The notes beneath the pieces were generated by a model. It was not told where the DNA came from. It ran no database searches and worked only from the letters and a program-made list of their open reading frames with translations. The position numbers and the translations under genes were made by a program. This document shows positions 41,686 to 53,008 of a stretch of DNA of 62,741 nucleotides, in pieces. Numbering within the stretch: position 1 is the first letter of the stretch; each line of letters begins with the position of its first letter. Source of the stretch: a candidate division Zixibacteria bacterium RBG_16_53_22. Its GTDB lineage: Bacteria; Zixibacteria; MSB-5A5; UBA10806. The stretch spans positions 1-62,741 of the forward strand of contig MEWP01000142.1 in NCBI GenBank assembly GCA_001775395.1. The letters are read 5' to 3'.

Positions 41686-42249
41686 CTAATAATTTTCCAT
41701 TCCGGAACCGTTGTTGGAGAAATCCGAATCTTCCCCCATCGTCTCCAACTCCTGAATTGGCTTGTTGACCAGGACAAGTCTTCCTGCTCCGCCTTCCAGG
41801 ACAACCTGCTTCTCCTCGATGCTTGTAACCCGGTAGGCCTTTTCGAGCCATCCGCCGACCTGGACAACGTAGCTCTTGCCGTTATACTTGATTATGGCTT
41901 TGGGATTATCGTCTACAACCGTGGCGGTCAGCCTGATCCGATCCTCTTCGTCGGTTTCCTTATATCCCGCACTGGCATAAGTGAAGCCCTTTATGACACG
42001 GCCAAGAAAAAGAGGATCCTGCGAGACCGCGAACCTGTGGCTCTGCGTGTTCTGCCAGATGATTTCGAGGGAATCGATGGTCGATTTGAGCGTCACGTTG
42101 GCGTCCAGCGTGGCCGGTTCCGATCCCTCGGCGCGCAGTTCCTGCCGTGCGCTGTTCATCAACATCCAGACAATCGAATAGCCCACGAAAAGAACCAGCC
42201 CAATCGCTGTCAAAATGGCCAAACCTTTTATAATGCTATCCCGATTCAC
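41686..42249 (-). CDS. pilP: type IV pilus lipoprotein-like PilP
   Basis: The 187-residue protein has one N-terminal membrane helix (about 8-29) and a C-terminal beta-rich domain ('AIIKYNGKSYVVQVGGWLE'). It lacks a lipobox, unlike proteobacterial PilP. Gene order between pilO and pilQ and size support PilP, which joins the inner-membrane PilN/O to the secretin. It overlaps pilO by 14 bases. Confidence 0.72.
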   Translation of the reverse strand: MNRDSIIKGLAILTAIGLVLFVGYSIVWMLMNSARQELRAEGSEPATLDANVTLKSTIDSLEIIWQNTQSHRFAVSQDPLFLGRVIKGFTYASAGYKETDEEDRIRLTATVVDDNPKAIIKYNGKSYVVQVGGWLEKAYRVTSIEEKQVVLEGGAGRLVLVNKPIQELETMGEDSDFSNNGSGMENY

Positions 42250-42835
42250 TTCTGAAACTCGCTTTCAATATGGCTAAGGCGTTTATTTGAAGAGTTATCG
42301 GATGTTGCCGCGGTTTGCCCACGATTTCATCCTGAATCGATGTCTGATCGATTTCATTATTGACCGTGAAATTGGAAACCCTGATCATCTGCGGAAATTT
42401 CTCCAACACGTCGAGGAATCTGCCCAATTCCTCGTAACTCGCCAGGATCCTCATTTCATAAGGCACCTGAAGATATTCCCTGATCACTTCCGAGGCCGGG
42501 TCCCTGGCCTCGATGATATCCATGGGTGACATGGCCACCAGCCTTATTCCAAGATGATCCATGGCCGTAGTCAAAAATTGCAGGAACGGTACCGAGGCTT
42601 TCTCCACCAGCGAATCATTGCGGCTTTCAATCAGGTTGTTCTTGATTAGCTGGGTGACGCCCTCGCGCTGCTCGGCCAATATCTGGGCGGCCAGAAGCTG
42701 CTTGTTTTTCTCCTCGATCTGGCTTTTTAATTCCGCCAGCCTCTTTGGCTGAGGCACGATGACATTATTGTAATAATAGTAGCAGCCCAGGAGCAGAACC
42801 AGGACCAATATCAATACGATTAAATTTTCCTTCAT
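42236..42835 (-). CDS. pilO: type IV pilus alignment protein PilO
   Basis: The 199-residue protein has an N-terminal membrane helix ('LIVLILVLVLLLGCYYYY'), a coiled-coil stretch ('LAELKSQIEEKNKQLLAAQI') and a C-terminal ferredoxin-like fold ('PYEMRILASYEELGRFLDVLE'). This is the PilO plan, partner of PilN in the inner-membrane alignment complex. It starts 12 bases after pilN. Confidence 0.86.
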   Translation of the reverse strand: MKENLIVLILVLVLLLGCYYYYNNVIVPQPKRLAELKSQIEEKNKQLLAAQILAEQREGVTQLIKNNLIESRNDSLVEKASVPFLQFLTTAMDHLGIRLVAMSPMDIIEARDPASEVIREYLQVPYEMRILASYEELGRFLDVLEKFPQMIRVSNFTVNNEIDQTSIQDEIVGKPRQHPITLQINALAILKASFRSESG

Positions 42836-42847
42836 CCTGCCTCCCGA

Positions 42848-43429
42848 CTATGATCTCAGCACGCAGGCAATCTCGAATTTGACGATTTCCTGCTCGTTGT
42901 GCTTGACACGTTGTGACGATTGAAACTTGATCTCCGCAAAATCGGAGCTGAAATCGGTATTGGCCTTGAGAATGTCTATAATCGATACCACCAGGTCCAG
43001 GTCCTTCAAGTCGCTTTTCACCTTGGATATTCCCTTGATAACGAAGGCATTGATATTGTCGTCATAGGAAAGCTCGGTGATGGCTACATCTCTGGGTAAA
43101 ATGCCGCCCAGCAGAGCAATCTTCTCCGACCAGGTCATCCGATTCTTGGCGACGTTGGCCAGCGTGAAAATATCCTCGGGCGAAAGGTAGTCGCTCGAGG
43201 CCTCGAGCCGATCTATCTTGGCCTCGATGGCCTGAAGCTCGGCCTCCTGGCTCCTGATGAGCTCCTGGATCTTGTATGATTTATACCCCGCATAGCCAAT
43301 TCCGGCCAGCACCAGGATGAAGAAAAGCGCCAGCGATATTATTTTGCGCTTCTTGCGGCCGCTCTCGAACTGATCCAGGCGGTTCGAGGCCTTGTTCAAG
43401 TTTATTTTATAATATTGCGCCCTCATCAA
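42848..43429 (-). CDS. pilN: type IV pilus alignment protein PilN
   Basis: The 193-residue protein has the short cytoplasmic PilN tail that binds PilM ('YYKINLNKA', the INLxx motif), a membrane helix (about 31-49), a coiled coil and a ferredoxin-like domain. It joins PilM to PilO and anchors the alignment complex. It overlaps pilM by four bases. Confidence 0.9.
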   Translation of the reverse strand: MMRAQYYKINLNKASNRLDQFESGRKKRKIISLALFFILVLAGIGYAGYKSYKIQELIRSQEAELQAIEAKIDRLEASSDYLSPEDIFTLANVAKNRMTWSEKIALLGGILPRDVAITELSYDDNINAFVIKGISKVKSDLKDLDLVVSIIDILKANTDFSSDFAEIKFQSSQRVKHNEQEIVKFEIACVLRS

Positions 43430-44475
43430 TCCTCCCTCAGGGCCAGCCCGCAGGCAACGGCCAGCTTGGTACCGATGGCTTCGTCAAAACCGGGCGGCAC
43501 GGTGAACATTTCGAAAGGATTGTAAACCTCCACGGTCATCGAAAGGGCCTGGGCCATATGAGAGTTCAGGTTGGGCATCATGGCCGTTCCGCCGCAGAGA
43601 AGTATCTTCTCGAATTCGCGCACACCCGTTTCTTTAGTGTAATAGCGAAGCGAGCGCCTGATCTCGTCGACCAATCCGTCGACCGCCATCCTCCTGGCCA
43701 CCCTGATGCCGGTCGCGGCAGCATCCTCCGCCAGCATGGCGCCCATGCCGCGTTCCTTCTTCTGGCTCTCGGCCTCGGCGTACTCGACTTTGCGCGCGGC
43801 CTTGATATCCTCGGTGATCTTATGGCCGCCGATTGGTATATCGCGAGAGAAGAGAATATTTTTGTCGGTGAAGACGGTGAGCGTGGTTGCCCTGGCGCCT
43901 ATATCGAGAAAGACCAGGCCGGCTTCTCCGGCCGGCTTGCCTTTGGTCAATAGGTATGAATTAACCAGGGCAGTGCAGCCGGCGTCGATTATTCTCGGCT
44001 TTAAGCTCACCTCCTGCAGCAGCTTGAGATAGTTGTCGAACGACTTCTTGGTGGTCGCCACAAGCAGGATGTCCATAAACGACGCCTCGCCCCCGCCATC
44101 GATTATCTGAAAATCGGTGATGGCCTCGGTGTCGTCCAGAGGAAGATGCTTGCGGGCCTCGAAGGAAAGTGATGATTCAAGTTCCTCGGGGGCCAGGGGT
44201 ATGGACCTGATCTGCTTGACCGCCACGCTCGGGCCGCTCAACGCGCAGTTGATATTCTTGACCCTCTTGGGGGAAATTTTCATCTGCTTGAAGCAATGCT
44301 TCAGGGCCGTGGTCAAGCGAGAATAACTGGCGCCCTCGGGGTCGTACTCCTCGCCCTCGCCGAAAATCTCCACGACGGAGTAGTTTTTCAGCTTGCGACG
44401 ATTGTCCTCGACATCGACCTCTACCATTTTCACGGAATAAGTGCCGATATCAAGACCCAGTGATGTCCTCGCCAT
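43426..44475 (-). CDS. pilM: type IV pilus actin-like ATPase PilM
   Basis: The 349-residue protein is an actin-fold PilM: 'LGLDIGTYSVKMVEV' at the N-terminus (phosphate 1), 'LVFLDIGARATTLTVF' and 'ILLCGGTAMMPNLNSHM'. PilM binds the cytoplasmic tail of PilN and links to the ATPases. It is the first of pilM-N-O-P-Q. A 245-base gap separates it from the minor pilin gene upstream; I see no clear promoter there. Confidence 0.93.
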   Translation of the reverse strand: MARTSLGLDIGTYSVKMVEVDVEDNRRKLKNYSVVEIFGEGEEYDPEGASYSRLTTALKHCFKQMKISPKRVKNINCALSGPSVAVKQIRSIPLAPEELESSLSFEARKHLPLDDTEAITDFQIIDGGGEASFMDILLVATTKKSFDNYLKLLQEVSLKPRIIDAGCTALVNSYLLTKGKPAGEAGLVFLDIGARATTLTVFTDKNILFSRDIPIGGHKITEDIKAARKVEYAEAESQKKERGMGAMLAEDAAATGIRVARRMAVDGLVDEIRRSLRYYTKETGVREFEKILLCGGTAMMPNLNSHMAQALSMTVEVYNPFEMFTVPPGFDEAIGTKLAVACGLALRED

Positions 44476-44720
44476 AGTACTCCTTTATCTTACAATTAGA
44501 AATGAATTCATATTATTAATCACAACAATCGTGGCCTGGTCGAGTGGATTGCCTGATAAAGGGGCGCTGATAATTCCTGGAGCCGGGGCGCATCCCCACC
44601 CGCGAAAAAAGATACAATTTCCTAATTTCCTCTCATCACCCGAGTAATCTGTGCGATCAAACCAAATATCCTGACAGTTTTACCCCCGCCTTCACGCTCT
44701 TTAAATCAGAGGTCGAGCGA
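44476..44720. other. 245-base gap within the pilus operon
   Basis: No gene, terminator or clear promoter is seen. A GGAG ribosome site for pilM lies at its low-coordinate end, preceded by an AT-rich stretch where a weak internal promoter may lie. Confidence 0.5.
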
Positions 44721-46205
44721 TCATCCCCCGCCGTCATCCTGCGCCACCTGCATATAGATTATCTCCTGGTCCAGGGTGGGCAGGTAATAGGGTGGCGGAT
44801 AATCTTTCAACCTGACATCATAATGATAATCTTTTTCGTCGAAACCACGCTCGCAATAAGGTTCACCGCAGGGCCATGTGGTATGAACGATGCCACGGTT
44901 CCGCTGTGCCAACGAACCGTAGATCTGCAGGGATACCTTGGGATTGCGATTGCTGGGATGGGTATTGGGAGTCACGTGCCAGTAGATATCCTGGACCGAG
45001 ATGGAGCCGGAAACCGCGGCCATGGCCGCGTTAATATAAACCGTATCCCGCACTTGCCGATGAATCATGATGCATTTTTCCGAAACCAGCCCGAGAACGT
45101 CGGAACAGGAATCCATGGTCGGAGGAACCGAATAGGGAAATGGACCGGTGGCGGGTCGCGAACGCTTGTAAACAAGATTATCCGTGATAATCATCGTGTC
45201 GGAGGACCCGATGGTCAACTGTCCCTCAAATCCCTGCGTAATGTACGCCCCGGGATGCATCGGAATCCGCTCCGGGAATTCGCCGTCCATAATATCGCCG
45301 CGGCCCCGCGAAGAGGAAATCCAGAGTTTGCCAATGACGAAGACGACGCCCGATCTCGGATGGGTCAATACACTCATATCGGAAATCGTGGTTGGCAAGC
45401 AGGCGATACTGTCGGCGCCGTTGACATTGCGAATGCCGCATCTGCGCCAACGGATCAGATCTCCGTCGAGAACAATATGTATCAAAGAATCAGTGCCAGC
45501 GGTCCCCAGCCACAGTCCGCAATTATCCCGGAGAATTTGAGCCTGGTTCGGAAAATAGATCGGATTCCGATAGCCCCAGCCCTCATCGAATCGCGCATGA
45601 TTGTTCGGCGGGTCAATATAGTTCATGGTAGTGGTCACGCGCTTCTTGAAAACCGGCCGGTCGGAAAACTGCTCTATCCGGATGGTGTCATTGGAATGCA
45701 CCTTACCGTCGAGCGTATCGGGAGTCCAGAACCTGATATCGTCGTGCCGGATAGTATCTCGCTCGCGGTGCGACAGATACAGGTAATCGGCATAGGTCTC
45801 ATAGCCGAATTGGATCGCCGCCTTCCTGGTTTTTTCCTGGCCTTCGTAGTCAGATTTGCCATACCCCAGAATGGTGACGTAGTTTCTCGTGCCGTAATTG
45901 ATATCCTCTTGATTGCCGGTGATGATTTCCGGGTAAAACCAATCGGTATTACGGCGATTCTCCCTGTCACGATAGAATAGCTGGTATCCGTATTGTCGGT
46001 GCCCGGAAAGATGATTTTCGACTCCTATCCGCGTGGCTCCCAGGGCGTTATAAAGCGCCTTGTGGTCCCCAATATTACCGCTGATGCTGTTATGCAGGTT
46101 AATCGCGAATGATAAATAAGCCACACCCAGAAGTATCACGATGAAGGAAAATACCACAGCCATCACCAGCATGCTTCCTTGTTCCTGACGGTTATATTTG
46201 CTCAT
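44721..46205 (-). CDS. large PilX-like minor pilin / pilus assembly protein
   Basis: The 494-residue product starts at an ATG with a GAGGAGG site (46205); 13 codons further upstream are spurious. It has a prepilin-like N-terminus 'QEQGSMLVMAVVFSFIVILLG' with a glycine at the cleavage place but no Glu5, as in PilX. The rest is a large, beta-rich domain of no clear family. PilX proteins are usually below 250 residues, so this is unusually large. It follows the PilW- and PilV-like genes, so it probably sits at the pilus tip. Confidence 0.74.
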   Translation of the reverse strand: MSKYNRQEQGSMLVMAVVFSFIVILLGVAYLSFAINLHNSISGNIGDHKALYNALGATRIGVENHLSGHRQYGYQLFYRDRENRRNTDWFYPEIITGNQEDINYGTRNYVTILGYGKSDYEGQEKTRKAAIQFGYETYADYLYLSHRERDTIRHDDIRFWTPDTLDGKVHSNDTIRIEQFSDRPVFKKRVTTTMNYIDPPNNHARFDEGWGYRNPIYFPNQAQILRDNCGLWLGTAGTDSLIHIVLDGDLIRWRRCGIRNVNGADSIACLPTTISDMSVLTHPRSGVVFVIGKLWISSSRGRGDIMDGEFPERIPMHPGAYITQGFEGQLTIGSSDTMIITDNLVYKRSRPATGPFPYSVPPTMDSCSDVLGLVSEKCIMIHRQVRDTVYINAAMAAVSGSISVQDIYWHVTPNTHPSNRNPKVSLQIYGSLAQRNRGIVHTTWPCGEPYCERGFDEKDYHYDVRLKDYPPPYYLPTLDQEIIYMQVAQDDGGG

Positions 46206-46240
46206 CTTGCCTCCTCGATGTCTTCGCAATGGATAATTCG

Positions 46241-46843
46241 TCACTGTTTCTTATTAAGTTTCGCCACAGCCCGCGAAACCATCAGGGAATCGCCCCGGGG
46301 AGACCGCAGCTTCATGTCCACCCTGATAATCGCGAAACCTTCCGTCGTCGGATTCCTCGGCTCGTCCTCATCGATGGCCGTAAAGGTCAATTCCTCTACG
46401 GTGATATAAGGATCATCCTGGGGCCCCTGTGCATAATCGAACAATGGAATGAGCCTCAAGTTGAATCGACCCCTATCACCGCTGAGATCGTTCCACCGGA
46501 AACTCAGATCCGATGAATTATAATAAAAATTCCTTTCGGCATATCCGCTCCCATCCATATCGAGACCTTTCACAAATAAGAAATCACTCGGTCGGTTCAG
46601 GCCGGTCCGCGTGCTTATATATTCGGCGTAGGTAACGGCGTCCGAAAGAACATTAAAGGCGGCTTCGGCCTCGTTATACATGACCATCTTATCGGTCTCC
46701 GTGTTCAATAAGCGGATACTGTCGACATAGGTTATGGCCAGGCCGCTGATCGCGATTGAGGAAATGAAAACAGCCACGACGACCTCAATCAGGGTTGTTC
46801 CCTTTTCGTCAGAACGGTATTTTTTCAGTCGATTCTTGCTCAT
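46241..46843 (-). CDS. minor pilin, PilW-like
   Basis: The 200-residue protein has a prepilin peptidase site 'DEKG^TTLIEVVVAVFISS' with Glu at +5, one membrane/polymerisation helix, and a variable C-terminal beta domain. Its place between the PilV-like and PilX-like genes and its size fit PilW. Minor pilins start fibre growth and shape the tip. Confidence 0.82.
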   Translation of the reverse strand: MSKNRLKKYRSDEKGTTLIEVVVAVFISSIAISGLAITYVDSIRLLNTETDKMVMYNEAEAAFNVLSDAVTYAEYISTRTGLNRPSDFLFVKGLDMDGSGYAERNFYYNSSDLSFRWNDLSGDRGRFNLRLIPLFDYAQGPQDDPYITVEELTFTAIDEDEPRNPTTEGFAIIRVDMKLRSPRGDSLMVSRAVAKLNKKQ

Positions 46844-46854
46844 CGATCATTTCC

Positions 46855-47298
46855 TTAAAAATAACTCTGGAATTCCACTTTCTGCGAGCGGCCGCTCTCG
46901 CGTTCAGTCCAGACATATTCCACGCTGACATGGCTGTAATTGGGCAGCCCGTTGGCCTGCCGCGAGCGGCTGGGAGTGATAGTGACGGTGCAATCAGCCA
47001 CCAACGGCTGCTCTTGCCCATCCTCCAGTACGATATATTCCTCGAATCTGCCCGCATACCGCCTGGGGATAGTATCGCAGACGACATGAAAAGACTTGAG
47101 GTTTTCCATTCGCGCCACGGCCAATTCGACCGCCTTGGCGCGATGCCTTTCCTCGGTCAGCATCTGCGAGCCCTGAATAAACATCTCATAAAGAGCGACC
47201 ACCGATATGGTAATAATAAAAACCGCAATCATTAGCTCGACCAGGTTGTAGCCGGCCTCACCGCGCCTGCGTTTAACGGGATTTTCAGTGACCCTCAT
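46855..47298 (-). CDS. minor pilin, PilV-like
   Basis: The 147-residue protein has a type III signal 'GEAG^YNLVELMIAVFIIT' with Glu+5 and a hydrophobic helix. A basic leader of 15 residues precedes the site. It follows pilT2 by eight bases and precedes the PilW-like gene by 11, as in a minor pilin operon. Confidence 0.82.
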   Translation of the reverse strand: MRVTENPVKRRRGEAGYNLVELMIAVFIITISVVALYEMFIQGSQMLTEERHRAKAVELAVARMENLKSFHVVCDTIPRRYAGRFEEYIVLEDGQEQPLVADCTVTITPSRSRQANGLPNYSHVSVEYVWTERESGRSQKVEFQSYF

Positions 47299-47306
47299 GC
47301 TTTCCT

Positions 47307-48407
47307 CTACTCCAGGAATAGTTTCGGATTATCGGCCCTCTGCGCCGCCACTGACCGCTCGATCTTGCCCTCGGCAACAAGCGTCAGCAGATGTTGATCC
47401 AGCGATTGCATGCCGACCTTGCTGCCGGCCTGAATTATCGACGGGATCTGGTATATCTTGTTTTCGCGAATCAGGTTCCTGACCGCCACCGTCGCAATCA
47501 TGACCTCCAACGCCACGATACGCCCCTTATCCTTGCGAGGGAGCAAGGTCTGAGCCACGACCGCCTGAAGCGATTCCGAAACCATCGAGCGCACCTGCGA
47601 TTTCTGCTCGGCCGGGAAGATATCGATGATACGATCGATAGTCTTGACCGCCGATGATGTATGCAGGGTCGCCAGGACCAGGTGCCCTGTCTCGGCAGCC
47701 GTCAACGCCAGTGATACTGTCTCCAGGTCGCGCATCTCACCGACCAGGATGACGTCGGGGTCCTCGCGCAGGGCCGCGCGAAGGGCATTGGCGAAAGAAT
47801 GGGTCGAGGCCCCAAGTTCACGCTGGTTTATCAGGCTGTGTCTGCTCGAATGGAAAAACTCGACTGGATCCTCGATGGTGATGACATGGCATTCCTTGTG
47901 CTGGTTAATCCAGTCGACCATGGTCGCCAGCGAAGTGGTCTTGCCCGATCCGGTTGGACCGGTGAGCAATACCAACCCCCTCTCCAGCAGCGAAAGCCGC
48001 TTCATGGCGTCCGGCAAACCCAGCTCCTCGAATGAGCGGATATCGGCCGGAATAGTACGATAAGCCCCGCCTACACCGTTTATCTGGCGGTAGACGTTAC
48101 AGCGGAACCGCGTGTTGTCATCGATCTCCTTGGCAAAATCGACCTCCCAGCGCTCCTCGAAACGCTTGAGCTGCTCGCCATTCATCGAGCTTAAGACCAG
48201 ATCCCTGACCCCCTGGCGTGTCAGGCCGGGCAGGTCGAGCTTGAGCAGACGCCCGTCGACACGGATCATGGGTAACGAACCCTCGGAGAGGTGAAGGTCC
48301 GAGGCGCCCTGTTCCTTGGTGAATTTCAAAAGATCATCGATGGTGAGCCGCTGTTCAACCGCTGTAATGCCGCCAATAGTTTCAAATTCTTCCAATGTCT
48401 TATCCAA
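47307..48407 (-). CDS. pilT2: type IV pilus retraction ATPase PilT (second copy)
   Basis: The 366-residue protein carries 'AYRTIPADIRSFEELG', Walker A GPTGSGKTT, 'EDPDVILVGEMRDLET', and an intact retraction motif AVRNLIRE, which the other PilT lacks. It therefore looks like the true retraction motor of this pilus. It lies between the pilin and the minor pilin genes, an unusual place for pilT. Confidence 0.93.
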   Translation of the reverse strand: MDKTLEEFETIGGITAVEQRLTIDDLLKFTKEQGASDLHLSEGSLPMIRVDGRLLKLDLPGLTRQGVRDLVLSSMNGEQLKRFEERWEVDFAKEIDDNTRFRCNVYRQINGVGGAYRTIPADIRSFEELGLPDAMKRLSLLERGLVLLTGPTGSGKTTSLATMVDWINQHKECHVITIEDPVEFFHSSRHSLINQRELGASTHSFANALRAALREDPDVILVGEMRDLETVSLALTAAETGHLVLATLHTSSAVKTIDRIIDIFPAEQKSQVRSMVSESLQAVVAQTLLPRKDKGRIVALEVMIATVAVRNLIRENKIYQIPSIIQAGSKVGMQSLDQHLLTLVAEGKIERSVAAQRADNPKLFLE

Positions 48408-48421
48408 ATTATGGGTTTACG

Positions 48422-48826
48422 TTAATCCTGGGTTATACCGTAGCCTGTCCAAACGCCGGTCTGAGCATTGAAATTCACATTCTTGCCGGTTACAGGGGCG
48501 CGTGTGCCTCTGGCGGTTATGGTCCTGATACCGGTGCCGCCGGCGCTGATCGAGAATTCCCATTTGTTTTGGACTATTTGATCAAGCCTTAAGCCGTCAT
48601 TCTCCAAAAGCTGGATATTGTTGGGCCAATTACCATATTTCGAATGATAAATTTTGGCCGCCGCCCATATCGCCCCAATGGCCTCCTGGGCCTCGCCGGC
48701 CCTGGCGCTGGCAACATATCTGAGATAAATCGGAACAGCTATGGCCGCCAGGATTGCCAAAATGACGACCACCACCAGCACTTCAACGAGTGTGAAACCA
48801 CGAATCTTGCGTCGCATCATCGACAT
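48422..48826 (-). CDS. pilA: major type IV pilin-like prepilin
   Basis: The 134-residue prepilin has a short basic leader 'MSMMRRKIRG' and the N-methylation motif 'G^FTLVEVLVVVVILAILAAI' with Glu+5. A pseudopilin-like C-terminal domain follows, with 'IYHSKYGNWPNN'. No cysteine pair is visible. An AAGGAGG site precedes the ATG. It is the first gene of the pilus operon, with its own promoter. It could be PilA or a GspG-like pseudopilin; the pil neighbours favour PilA. Confidence 0.88.
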   Translation of the reverse strand: MSMMRRKIRGFTLVEVLVVVVILAILAAIAVPIYLRYVASARAGEAQEAIGAIWAAAKIYHSKYGNWPNNIQLLENDGLRLDQIVQNKWEFSISAGGTGIRTITARGTRAPVTGKNVNFNAQTGVWTGYGITQD

Positions 48827-49111: not shown

Positions 49112-50308
49112 TTACTTGTTGAGTTCCTTTTTGAGCTCCGAAAGCTGGGTTTGAAGCTGGTCCATCTCTTTTCTGAGCCTGGAAAGCTCCGATTTCAAGC
49201 CTTCGAGGCTGTTTACCGGCAAGTTCCTGGCGGCCTCGAGAGCCGATGAGAGATTCCCAAAATACCCGACCAAATTCTCTTCCGGGGCTTCGCTCAGGCT
49301 AACCCGAAGCACCATCTTTTGATCATCCCGAAAAATCTCCAAATTAACCGCATCGCCCGGCTTACGCGATCGAACCATATAGAAGAGCGAGGTTCTATCC
49401 TTGACCGGGTAGGTGTCGAAGCTGACGATTATATCTCCTTTCCGGAGACCAGCGCTATCGGCCGGGGATTCCCGATCAACCTCCGTCACCCAGACGCCTC
49501 GGTCGATTCCCAATCTCTCCCTGGTCTCAGGGGGGAACTCCTCGGTGCTCAAACCAAGATATCCCCGGCTGACACGGCCCTTTTCGATAATCTGATCCGC
49601 CACGAAGCGCGCCGTCGCAAACGGCATGGCGTAGCTTCTACCGGAGCCTCCGCCCCCTTGCTCCAGGAACCGCAGGGCATTCGGATAGGCCGTCGAAATC
49701 AGCGATAGCGAACCGTCAAACCAATTATTACTGGCGCCTTCACGGGCAACCAAAACGCCCACGATGCGCCCATCGATATTAAATATGGCCCCGCCCGATG
49801 AGCCCGGACTGGCGCTCAACGACAGCGACAGGAAGCCCTCCTCCGTTCTCTCCTGGAAACTTCCAAAATTCACTGTCGATGGCCTGTCATAGGAATTGCC
49901 GACGAGGGTGATCCAATCGCCGCATTCAAGCGGCCCGGACGCCGGCCAGGCGGGTATGGAAAATTGCTGTCCCTGAATTTTCAGGACGGCAAGTCCTGTA
50001 AAATTATCCACGCCCACTTTGAGGGCCGGATATGACCTGCCGTCCTTGAAGGTTACATTGAAACCCGTCGCCTCGAATATTTGCGATGACGTTATAACAT
50101 GGCCGGAGTCGTCATATACGATGCCGGTGGCGACCAGATTCCTCCAGCCCCCGTCGCATCGTACCGTTACAAGGTATGGCTCGGTGCCCTTGACAAGAGC
50201 GTTCAACTCCAGATCGAGCGATTTTAATATCCCGGCCCCGGCGTGTCCGGAAAGGCCAATCGCGGCCCCCACAATCAAGGGTATTAATTTCGCACCCCGT
50301 ATCATCAT
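49112..50308 (-). CDS. HtrA/DegP-like trypsin-fold PDZ protein lacking two catalytic residues
   Basis: The 398-residue protein has a signal peptide, a trypsin-like domain (about 40-230), a PDZ domain (about 240-340) and a C-terminal coiled coil (about 355-398). By alignment with DegP, the catalytic His is replaced by Gln76 ('VITSSQIF' for 'VVTNNHVV') and the Asp by Gly105 ('TGLAVLKI' for 'SDIALLQI'); Ser171 in 'SPGSSGGAIF' is kept. It is therefore probably an inactive pseudoprotease, perhaps a periplasmic chaperone or sensor. It is the third gene of the sigma operon, where DegP-type proteases often are. The coiled coil is unusual. Confidence 0.86.
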   Translation of the reverse strand: MMIRGAKLIPLIVGAAIGLSGHAGAGILKSLDLELNALVKGTEPYLVTVRCDGGWRNLVATGIVYDDSGHVITSSQIFEATGFNVTFKDGRSYPALKVGVDNFTGLAVLKIQGQQFSIPAWPASGPLECGDWITLVGNSYDRPSTVNFGSFQERTEEGFLSLSLSASPGSSGGAIFNIDGRIVGVLVAREGASNNWFDGSLSLISTAYPNALRFLEQGGGGSGRSYAMPFATARFVADQIIEKGRVSRGYLGLSTEEFPPETRERLGIDRGVWVTEVDRESPADSAGLRKGDIIVSFDTYPVKDRTSLFYMVRSRKPGDAVNLEIFRDDQKMVLRVSLSEAPEENLVGYFGNLSSALEAARNLPVNSLEGLKSELSRLRKEMDQLQTQLSELKKELNK

Positions 50309-50316
50309 GCGCCGCC

Positions 50317-50886
50317 CTAAAACTTATGGTCGACAGTCTCTTTAACCTTCTGATAGTCCGGCAGGACATACTCCTCGATTCTCAGGGTCGAATCGTTCCG
50401 AAGAGTGGATTTGCTGTCAACGGCCTGCTGAGGAATCGCCCCCTCGGGGACCGGAAAGGAACTGACCTTGGTTTCGGGATGGGCCCAAAAATCGGGCGCT
50501 GTCTGCGACTGCCTCATCAGCGAATCCTGGACTCCGGAGTAAGTCGATGTCACATTTGTCGATGGTGGACCGACCAGGAAGAAAACGGCCGCCGACGTCA
50601 CCATGAAGGCCGCGCCGGCAATTGTAAATCTGTAGCGAAATGCTCCTAAAACCTCCTTGGTTTCCTGCTGGGAATTGATCGCTTTGACAACCCTCTCGAC
50701 GAATCCATCCGTGAGTGTCAGCGAAGGCAAGTCCCGCGCCGCCGTCACAATGGCCTCGTACTCCCCAAGCCGCCGTTTACAGGAGTGGCAATGCTCGAGA
50801 TGCTCCTCGACAGCCTGTCTTATGCCCGGCGAAAGGTCGTTATCAATAAAGGCTGATAGTCTGCGGGATACCCCTCGACAGTTCAT
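50317..50886 (-). CDS. zf-HC2 anti-sigma factor of the RpoE-like operon
   Basis: The 189-residue protein has the zinc-finger anti-sigma domain with Cys3, His29, Cys33 and Cys36 ('EEHLEHCHSC'), one membrane helix (about 87-105, 'FTIAGAAFMVTSAAVFFLV') and a periplasmic C-terminal part. It should hold the sigma factor in the cytoplasm until a periplasmic signal releases it. It overlaps the sigma gene by 44 bases and has its own AAGGAGA site. The HtrA-like gene follows after eight bases. Confidence 0.9.
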   Translation of the reverse strand: MNCRGVSRRLSAFIDNDLSPGIRQAVEEHLEHCHSCKRRLGEYEAIVTAARDLPSLTLTDGFVERVVKAINSQQETKEVLGAFRYRFTIAGAAFMVTSAAVFFLVGPPSTNVTSTYSGVQDSLMRQSQTAPDFWAHPETKVSSFPVPEGAIPQQAVDSKSTLRNDSTLRIEEYVLPDYQKVKETVDHKF

Positions 50887-51466
50887 AATAAATCTCCTTG
50901 TACGGTTTAAGTTTATCTCTCAACATCGCTCTTGCCCTGTTTATCCTCGATTTCACGGTCCCCACGGGGACTCGCAGAATCTCGGCAATCTGCTGATATG
51001 GCAGCCGCTGTATATCGCACAGAATAAATGCCGTCCTGTAATCTTCAGGAAGGGCATCGATGGCCTTTTGCAATATAGGCGCCAACCCCTCCCCGATGCC
51101 GCCCGTTCTGCCGGCTATCTCGACATCCGATTCTTCCTTCAGAAAATCGAGGCTTAAGAATCGTCGCAATTTCCTTTTGCGAAGCTCGGAGCGGGCCAGA
51201 TTCAAGGCAATCGTGTAAATCCAGGTGGAAACGGCATATTCCGGCGTATAGCTGTGCTTCTGATTGAAAATCCTCAGGAATGTCTCCTGGATAAGCTCCT
51301 CGGCCGTCTCCTGGTCGGTCACAATGCGCCCCACGAAATTCAGAAGCCGGTCCTGGTAACGGGCCACCAGCTCGGCGAATGACTTCTCGTCACCGCTTTG
51401 AATAAGCTCCATCAACTCCTTGTCGGAAATCCTGGAGCGTCCTTTTTCATTTGTTCCGTTAGACAC
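50843..51466 (-). CDS. rpoE: ECF sigma factor, RpoE-like
   Basis: The 207-residue protein has sigma region 2 ('FAELVARYQDRLLNFVGRIV', 'AEELIQETFLRIF') and region 4 ('DALPEDYRTAFILCDIQ', 'PYQQIAEILRVPVGTVKSRI'). It opens at a GTG with a GGGAG site five bases upstream. It begins an operon with its anti-sigma and an HtrA-like protein, the classic arrangement of envelope-stress sigma factors. It differs from the sigma factor at 1-537. Confidence 0.93.
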   Translation of the reverse strand: MSNGTNEKGRSRISDKELMELIQSGDEKSFAELVARYQDRLLNFVGRIVTDQETAEELIQETFLRIFNQKHSYTPEYAVSTWIYTIALNLARSELRKRKLRRFLSLDFLKEESDVEIAGRTGGIGEGLAPILQKAIDALPEDYRTAFILCDIQRLPYQQIAEILRVPVGTVKSRINRARAMLRDKLKPYKEIYYELSRGIPQTISLY

Positions 51467-51820: not shown

Positions 51821-53008
51821 TTATCTATAAATAGTCGTGGCCAACAGCCAGGAGATCAAAGAGGTCAGGATTATCGGCAGAATCAGCAGCGAAAGGGTCC
51901 TGGCCAGCGAGGCCTTGAAATAGTCATTTGTCAGGACCAGGCAGAGATGCACCGGCGAGGCCATCACCCCCATGAACCCCCCGGCGAACGCCAGTAGCAT
52001 CCCGGCTTTGTATGTCAAGTCCCCGGCCCCCAGGAGCGGCAGGACCACCGGAAAGCCGACTCCAATATAGGCCGACGTAATCCCCGTTAAAAAGCCAACC
52101 ACGAATGGCACCGTAAAAACAACCATCACGGATGGTATGTGATAATAAAGCAGTTCGTTGTAGAAAATCGCCGCCGCGCCGGTGTTTTCGATGGCATACA
52201 TCAGGGTCATAACCCCAAAAATCAGAAGCATGATGCTGGGTGAAAAGCCGTTTTTCAGGCCCTTTATCACGTCCGGCCTGGAGACCCGTCGAATCAATAT
52301 CACAGTCAGATTCACCAGCATGACCGATATTATCAGGTCGACCCGGAAGACCAGCCCCAGAAGCACGATGGTGGCTATCGGCCAGAGTGACCCGAGAAGG
52401 GCCCCAAAATCGAGGCCGCCTGCCTTGCGATGCGACGAGCCCACCTTCTTGAGTATCAAGCCGGAAAGAATGCAGGCGACCGAGATCGGGAAATTAATAA
52501 TGGCAACGTCCCATACTGAAACTTTGAGCACCGCCGCGGCCAATATGATGCTTGGATAGAGCGGCCAGGTGGTCTCCCAGACGTGCCGCCACCAGTAATT
52601 GAGAGCTGTGAATTGCTCCGGTGTGATATCCGAATTGGCGCCCAGTTCCTTGACCAGGGGGGCCGAAACCATCGCTCCACCCGGCATCGGCAGCAGCCCT
52701 ATTATCGATGGCGCCACTCGGGCAACCCATTTGGGCGGAAGAAACGTCTGTAGCGAGGCCACCATTTTCTTGACATACCCGGCCGATTCATAGATGTGAG
52801 CGAACGTCAAAATCAGCGCCACGGTAATCACAAGCCGCCAGCTTTTGAGATTGATCAGGGAATCGTAAAGCATCTGCCAGAACCGCTCCGAGAATTGGAA
52901 ATGATAGACCCCCAGGAATATGGCTCCGACCAGAAGCGCCACGCCTATGGGTAATTTGAATCGAACCAAGACTACTATAATCGCGAAAAGCAGAAGCAAG
53001 GCCAGCAT
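51821..53008 (-). CDS. DUF401-family membrane permease
   Basis: The 395-residue protein has about ten membrane helices and the DUF401 signature 'GLLPMPGGAMVSAPLVKELG' followed by 'TALNYWWRHVWETTWPLYP'. The family belongs to the ion-transporter/dicarboxylate superfamily. The substrate is not known. The start codon has no ribosome site and lies only about four bases after the predicted transcription start, so the mRNA may be leaderless. It is divergent from the glutamate dehydrogenase gene, with 147 bases between them. Confidence 0.85.
   Translation of the reverse strand: MLALLLLFAIIVVLVRFKLPIGVALLVGAIFLGVYHFQFSERFWQMLYDSLINLKSWRLVITVALILTFAHIYESAGYVKKMVASLQTFLPPKWVARVAPSIIGLLPMPGGAMVSAPLVKELGANSDITPEQFTALNYWWRHVWETTWPLYPSIILAAAVLKVSVWDVAIINFPISVACILSGLILKKVGSSHRKAGGLDFGALLGSLWPIATIVLLGLVFRVDLIISVMLVNLTVILIRRVSRPDVIKGLKNGFSPSIMLLIFGVMTLMYAIENTGAAAIFYNELLYYHIPSVMVVFTVPFVVGFLTGITSAYIGVGFPVVLPLLGAGDLTYKAGMLLAFAGGFMGVMASPVHLCLVLTNDYFKASLARTLSLLILPIILTSLISWLLATTIYR

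Follow-up and report, generated by a model that had tools for sequence, protein, structure and literature searches.

A phylum-wide HtrA pseudoprotease in an anti-sigma operon, evolutionarily coupled to the C-terminus of the anti-sigma factor

What does an HtrA-family protein do in a stress operon once it has lost the residues with which such proteins cut? The question is raised by a gene in the 62,741-nucleotide contig MEWP01000142.1 of the candidate division Zixibacteria bacterium RBG_16_53_22 (the whole of this stretch is hereafter called the window). Classically, the C-termini of outer-membrane proteins (OMPs) are read by an HtrA protease that also cuts the anti-sigma factor; DegS has this site-1 role towards RseA, and AlgW towards MucA. 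Clusters of an ECF sigma factor, an anti-sigma factor and an HtrA include sigE-rseA-htrA of Mycobacterium and algU-mucABCD, with MucD, of Pseudomonas, and their HtrAs are taken as active. It is the PDZ domains of DegS and AlgW that bind C-terminal peptides ending in Phe in the envelope (PMC8545111). HtrA pseudoproteases as such are already known: MamO, a dead HtrA with a transporter domain and a metal-binding di-His motif, is kept for a non-catalytic role and is needed for MamE-dependent processing (PMC4794232).

The 398-residue protein of the window consists of an N-terminal signal or hydrophobic segment, a degenerate Trypsin_2 domain (residues 60-185, 67 bits), one PDZ domain (PDZ_2, residues 260-338, 62 bits) and a C-terminal coiled coil (Table 1). 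The order of a trypsin-like domain and then a PDZ is that of the HtrA/Deg fold, and Foldseek matches the protein to DegS, DegP and DegQ with E-values of about 1e-26. The His-Asp-Ser triad of HtrA/Deg serine proteases, in contrast, is incomplete. Alignment with the solved DegS, DegP and DegQ chains and with four HtrA paralogues from the same genome gives Q76, G105 and S171, confirming the substitutions of which the initial annotation had spoken on comparison with DegP. The surrounding motifs read ITSSQIF against the canonical TNNHVV, DNFTGLAVL against DxxTDLAVL, and SPGSSGGA around the serine. That the PDZ is intact and that an extra coiled coil follows it, as had also been claimed, was borne out by the Pfam PDZ_2 match, by a carboxylate-binding loop kept in every copy examined and by the predicted helices at residues 343-361 and 365-397. 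A His and an Asp elsewhere that could form a working triad were looked for and none was apparent: there are only two His residues, H22 in the signal sequence and H70. In the alignment, the latter falls on the Tyr in the canonical 'GYILTN' strand (GY-[IV]-[LV]-TN), six positions short of the catalytic one, and is therefore not a displaced catalytic His. Its column is mostly H or Y among relatives, and the orthologue alignment holds no other His column common across the family.

Table 1. Features of the operon and of the HtrA-family pseudoprotease, in window coordinates
Feature	Position	Strand	Basis
ECF-type sigma factor gene, operon head, overlaps start of anti-sigma gene	50843..51466	(-)	Pfam, NCBIfam; conserved order
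Anti-sigma factor: zf-HC2, one transmembrane helix, ~84-aa disordered periplasmic tail	50317..50886	(-)	Pfam, hydropathy, AF2
Anti-sigma C-terminus VDHKF-COOH, proposed PDZ ligand	50320..50334	(-)	Terminal F/Y statistics with versus without HtrA
HtrA-family pseudoprotease, 398 aa	49112..50308	(-)	Pfam, PDB sequence search, AF2 model, Foldseek, orthologues
Gln76 codon, catalytic His position	50081..50083	(-)	Alignments to DegS/DegP and paralogues
Gly105 codon, catalytic Asp position	49994..49996	(-)	Alignments
Ser171 codon, catalytic Ser position; kept in window, lost in families f9 and f16	49796..49798	(-)	Alignments
PDZ domain, residues ~246-338	49295..49573	(-)	Pfam PDZ_2 and PDZ_6; AF2 pLDDT >90 over most
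PDZ carboxylate-binding loop Y250-L251-G252	49553..49561	(-)	[YFW][LIVM]G in 70/70 orthologues
C-terminal coiled-coil helix, residues ~365-397	49118..49216	(-)	AF2 helix with high pLDDT; leucine heptads; present in most orthologues

The AF2 model (mean pLDDT 82, pTM 0.72) comprises a protease fold, one PDZ and the two helices, with low confidence at about residues 191-221, past the Ser loop. When it was searched with Foldseek, DegS with a bound peptide ending in YQF ranked first, followed by DegP and DegQ. The comparison with DegP was loose: the HtrA fold and the triad positions do correspond, but the modelled fold and the layout with a single PDZ, seen with both Pfam and AF2, are nearer to DegS. 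The best description is a DegS-like fold rather than a DegS proper, as the protein scores 127 bits against the NCBIfam DegS equivalog, whose cut-off is 423. Its N-terminus is hydrophobic by hydropathy; in family f1 an A-x-A-like site, judged by eye only, suggests that this segment may be cleaved off as a signal and not serve as a membrane anchor. The window's genome encodes four further HtrAs with intact triads, so the pseudoprotease is not a stand-in for the cell's only HtrA. Even the nearest paralogue compared shares only 29% sequence identity with it.

The initial annotation assigned the gene to the RpoE operon. It is indeed part of a stress sigma operon headed by an ECF factor. However, the sigma factor reaches only 116 bits against the NCBIfam RpoE model (cut-off 236), which makes it a generic ECF factor, and neither an RseA-family anti-sigma factor nor a PF03888 (RseB) match was found in the window's genome, Pfam assigning only zf-HC2 to the anti-sigma factor. 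Across 132 genomes, PF03888 gave weak, mostly partial matches in 18. An RseP-family protease is present in the window's genome. Beyond HtrA, the operon of several families also contains genes for a carboxymuconolactone-decarboxylase-like protein, TamB and Omp85/POTRA (the first in L059; TamB and Omp85/POTRA among L059, L057, L050, L054, L062 and L065), and the TamB and Omp85 neighbours link the operon to outer-membrane assembly in many relatives. Two complete Omp85 proteins were examined, and their last residues are LFSF and LYAF. In the window, as elsewhere in its order, type IV pilus genes follow HtrA instead of TamB and Omp85; they include a pilin, a PilT-like ATPase, a pilM-like gene and others (42236-48826, minus strand), arranged in the same way in f1 and f2. 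Directly upstream of the sigma gene, in the window (51821-53008, minus strand) as in many relatives, lies a gene for a DUF401 membrane protein.

The operon is by no means confined to the window. The succession of ECF sigma factor, zf-HC2 anti-sigma factor and HtrA recurs with conserved order across the phylum (132 genomes of the class were searched, and a search at the level of the phylum gave the same 132). Among 69 aligned copies of the HtrA, 4 have the catalytic His, 11 the Asp and 28 the Ser; all three residues occur together in only three copies, each from family f7. Ser is the commonest replacement at the His position, and in the two large families f9 and f16 the Ser position is mostly Ile, Val or Leu. 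Partial triads occur in G002 (H-G-S), f15 (L-D-S) and some members of f3 (R-D-S), and look like intermediate or partial states. Homologues, in which the initial annotation proposed to look for the same substitutions, have also lost the triad in the same operon slot, but by substitutions that differ between relatives. Within the window's own family, the relative G002 retains the His. As same-slot relatives carry their own, different replacements, we rejected sequencing error or chance as the source of the substitutions. A further candidate, an HtrA of G004 broken by rearrangement into two distant places (L042, L043), was also discarded, its first fragment ending in an N run that indicates a scaffold error.

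The operon HtrAs form one clade (support 100/99) apart from the active HtrAs compared, with f7 nested inside it. If a lost triad is never regained, this topology would imply an active ancestor and several losses of the triad, the deep branches being too weak for the losses to be counted. The gene is nevertheless maintained: dN/dS is 0.06-0.23 in 11 close pairs, copies without the Ser included, and in most of these pairs lies between the values of the sigma and anti-sigma factors. The triad columns rank only 194th, 150th and 82nd in conservation among 398, and the invariant positions are G252 of the PDZ loop together with G172, G130, P282, A283 and D292; the protein thus remains under constraint, but elsewhere than at the site that was once catalytic. 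Sequence decay or assembly error is likewise rejected as an explanation, given the purifying selection and the frames that stay open in dozens of genomes. An HtrA fold that has lost its triad and is kept under selection is what defines an HtrA pseudoprotease in general, and the initial suggestion of a binding or sensing role fits the retained PDZ, the phylum-wide loss of the triad and the purifying selection. The ligand suggested at that time, misfolded outer-membrane proteins, fares less well; these would be at most a competing ligand of the PDZ, and the clearest predicted ligand is the C-terminal Phe or Tyr of the anti-sigma factor.

The periplasmic tail of the anti-sigma factor, about 84 residues long in the window with a median of 115, can scarcely be aligned from one family to another, and AF2 predicts it as disordered, with a free end. 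Yet among the 93 operons that contain HtrA it ends in Phe or Tyr in 89 (68 Y, 21 F), and such an end is found in all fifteen families of the first sample. By comparison, 17% of the ORFs at these loci terminate in F or Y, and among the remaining complete zf-HC2 proteins of the same genomes this holds for about 1 of 22. A second zf-HC2 gene in the window (L152; 543-644, plus strand) encodes a protein ending in EEVEI. The four exceptions with HtrA are three f16 genomes, with a terminal Pro, and G059, with a Ser. In the former (L134, L135 and L139), the anti-sigma factor stops at YLVIP or YLISP, before the aromatic end seen in four relatives. A full YxF motif is absent from the tails, position -2 being variable. 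Further upstream in the tail end, [YF][VIL]xP occurs in 38/93 operons with HtrA and 0/17 without, a motif picked after viewing the tails and hence a lead only.

The aromatic end goes together with the presence of HtrA. In f6, most of f18, G001 and G007, HtrA is missing from the site while the sigma and anti-sigma factors are kept, and no HtrA relic was detected in the regions searched (by tblastn for G001 and G007). The anti-sigma factor ends in F or Y in 7 of these 17 orthologous operons, the remainder ending in R, Q, H or N; against 89/93 this gives a Fisher p of 3e-7 with kinship ignored. On a quick tree of the sigma factor, a 200-aa protein, and with losses on HtrA-loss branches scored as 'without', the aromatic was lost 4 times in 29.9 units of tree length with HtrA and 7 times in 2.3 units without (p = 2.6e-6, or 5e-6 with f18 coded as one loss), i.e., about 22 times faster where HtrA is absent. 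An independent-pairs test, in which significance is unreachable with only 4-5 pairs, showed no pair in the opposite direction in nearly all pairings.

The simplest reading of these sequence patterns is that the PDZ binds the aromatic end of the anti-sigma factor. We therefore favor, with a probability of about 0.5, a non-catalytic DegS-like HtrA that would act through its PDZ as a clamp or sensor on that end. In the envelope, the PDZ of the dead HtrA would grip the product of the preceding gene, the anti-sigma factor, by its free C-terminal Phe or Tyr; in the cytoplasm, the zinc-finger part of the anti-sigma factor would hold the ECF sigma factor. The bound HtrA might shield the disordered tail from site-1 proteolysis or fix its place, in the fashion of RseB on RseA. 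Under envelope stress, other exposed C-terminal aromatics, e.g., those of unassembled OMPs, could compete for the PDZ and free the tail, upon which the anti-sigma factor would be cut by an active HtrA or a Prc-type protease and the sigma factor released; its operon would then yield further clamp protein, together with TamB and Omp85 in many relatives. The parts of this scheme that we infer are that the two proteins bind at all, whether binding protects or delivers the anti-sigma factor, that OMP tails compete, and which protease does the cutting. Protection with OMP competition is favored over delivery because the HtrA is incapable of cutting and because of the ties of the operon to outer-membrane assembly. 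The RseP-family protease and the four intact HtrAs of the genome would be available for the cutting. On the other side, three f16 genomes and G059 keep HtrA without the aromatic, 7/17 HtrA-less operons retain the aromatic without HtrA, and f7 has an apparently complete triad in the same slot. The wider proposition of a phylum-wide stress switch, in which the dead HtrA is the receptor for an anti-sigma C-terminus that mimics an OMP end and in which real OMP ends compete for the same PDZ, is possible but on balance doubtful. If true, sensing would operate by ligand competition on a pseudoprotease in place of the allosteric activation of a protease.

Among the alternatives, the one that survives best is a non-proteolytic periplasmic chaperone or holdase, which would be induced by the sigma factor and bind unfolded OMPs through the PDZ, the protease fold and the coiled coil, the latter as an additional binding part, with the tail serving as an OMP mimic by which free capacity is sensed through titration. 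HtrA variants without proteolytic activity are still able to prevent aggregation and to rescue stress phenotypes (PMC11642142), and TamB and Omp85 adjoin the operon in several families. However, the protein has one PDZ only, like the sensor DegS, where DegP and DegQ have two, and a plain chaperone with no link to signalling does not predict the coupling between tail and HtrA. We therefore consider this role unlikely, bearing in mind that titration also requires binding of the tail and so overlaps with binding of the anti-sigma end by a clamp.

Another explanation grants the aromatic end its function but gives it to a different reader: the Phe or Tyr would be meant for another PDZ protease, be it RseP, Prc or an active HtrA paralogue, while the dead HtrA does something else. 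The PDZ domains of RseP or Prc could recognize a free C-terminus just as well, an RseP-family protease is encoded in the genome, Prc is the site-1 protease in some anti-sigma systems (PMC7593790), and Tyr is kept in some operons without HtrA. RseP, however, as a rule cuts once a site-1 protease has done so, and it does not admit long periplasmic domains (PMC7593790); the tails here are of about 80-115 residues. Moreover, the aromatic is lost so much faster without HtrA even though RseP-type proteases are near-universal, and we regard a different reader as improbable. Quite as improbable is a regulatory subunit, in which the dead copy would co-assemble with one of the four active paralogues and steer it to the anti-sigma factor, much as MamO promotes proteolysis by MamE with no triad of its own (PMC4794232). 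Active paralogues do coexist in the window's genome, but no paralogue is linked to the operon and the nearest one compared is distant in sequence. As for a functionless remnant on its way to loss, the complete loss of HtrA in the lineages named above would fit, but the idea is largely refuted by the dN/dS values, as well as by the open frames in dozens of genomes and the invariant PDZ loop and glycines, and is hardly credible. A protease with an alternative catalytic arrangement is equally far-fetched: the window protein does retain Ser171 and the GxSGG loop, and one family has a full triad, but there is no conserved replacement His or Asp and f9 and f16 have lost the Ser itself.

In the architecture of a trypsin-like domain with one PDZ, in its top fold matches and in its tie to an ECF sigma/membrane anti-sigma pair, the pseudoprotease resembles DegS and AlgW, from which it differs by lacking the His and Asp, by the extra coiled coil and by a proposed ligand that is the anti-sigma factor itself. 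It shares a dead triad on an HtrA fold with MamO and other magnetotactic HtrA pseudoproteases. In contrast to MamO, however, it has no surface di-His motif, the mature window protein having a single His, and its context is an anti-sigma operon. The role proposed for it, that of a periplasmic partner shielding the anti-sigma factor until a stress ligand displaces it, would be like that of RseB/MucB, although the fold is unrelated and the binding site would be the extreme C-terminus of the anti-sigma factor. The clusters sigE-rseA-htrA and algU-mucABCD have the same grouping of genes, and f7 resembles their active-HtrA state.

In the open-licence literature, we did not find described either an HtrA pseudoprotease in an anti-sigma operon or an anti-sigma factor that is bound by a PDZ at its native C-terminus. 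What appears new with respect to that literature is the phylum-wide occurrence of the former and its evolutionary coupling to the anti-sigma C-terminus. Evolution has apparently retained the reader and dropped the cutter over most of one phylum, with the aromatic end of the anti-sigma factor conserved, and this makes it possible to ask, directly and at low cost, whether binding by a PDZ is by itself enough to drive an envelope stress response. The families also provide a decay series for studying the passage from enzyme to regulator, from f7 with an intact triad, through G002, which has the His, and f15 and some f3, which have the Asp, to f9 and f16 with the Ser lost. Genes of this kind should not be annotated as serine proteases.

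Some operon HtrAs carry features of their own. Those of f11 (L060, L119) are about 665-712 residues long, with extra PDZ-like repeats and an Asp at the His position. In f16 (L133-L139), 7/7 genomes have a terminator-like hairpin, CCGCC...GGCGG followed by a T run, near the 5' end of the pseudo-HtrA reading frame, where it encodes part of the signal peptide; it is possibly an attenuator between the anti-sigma factor and HtrA.
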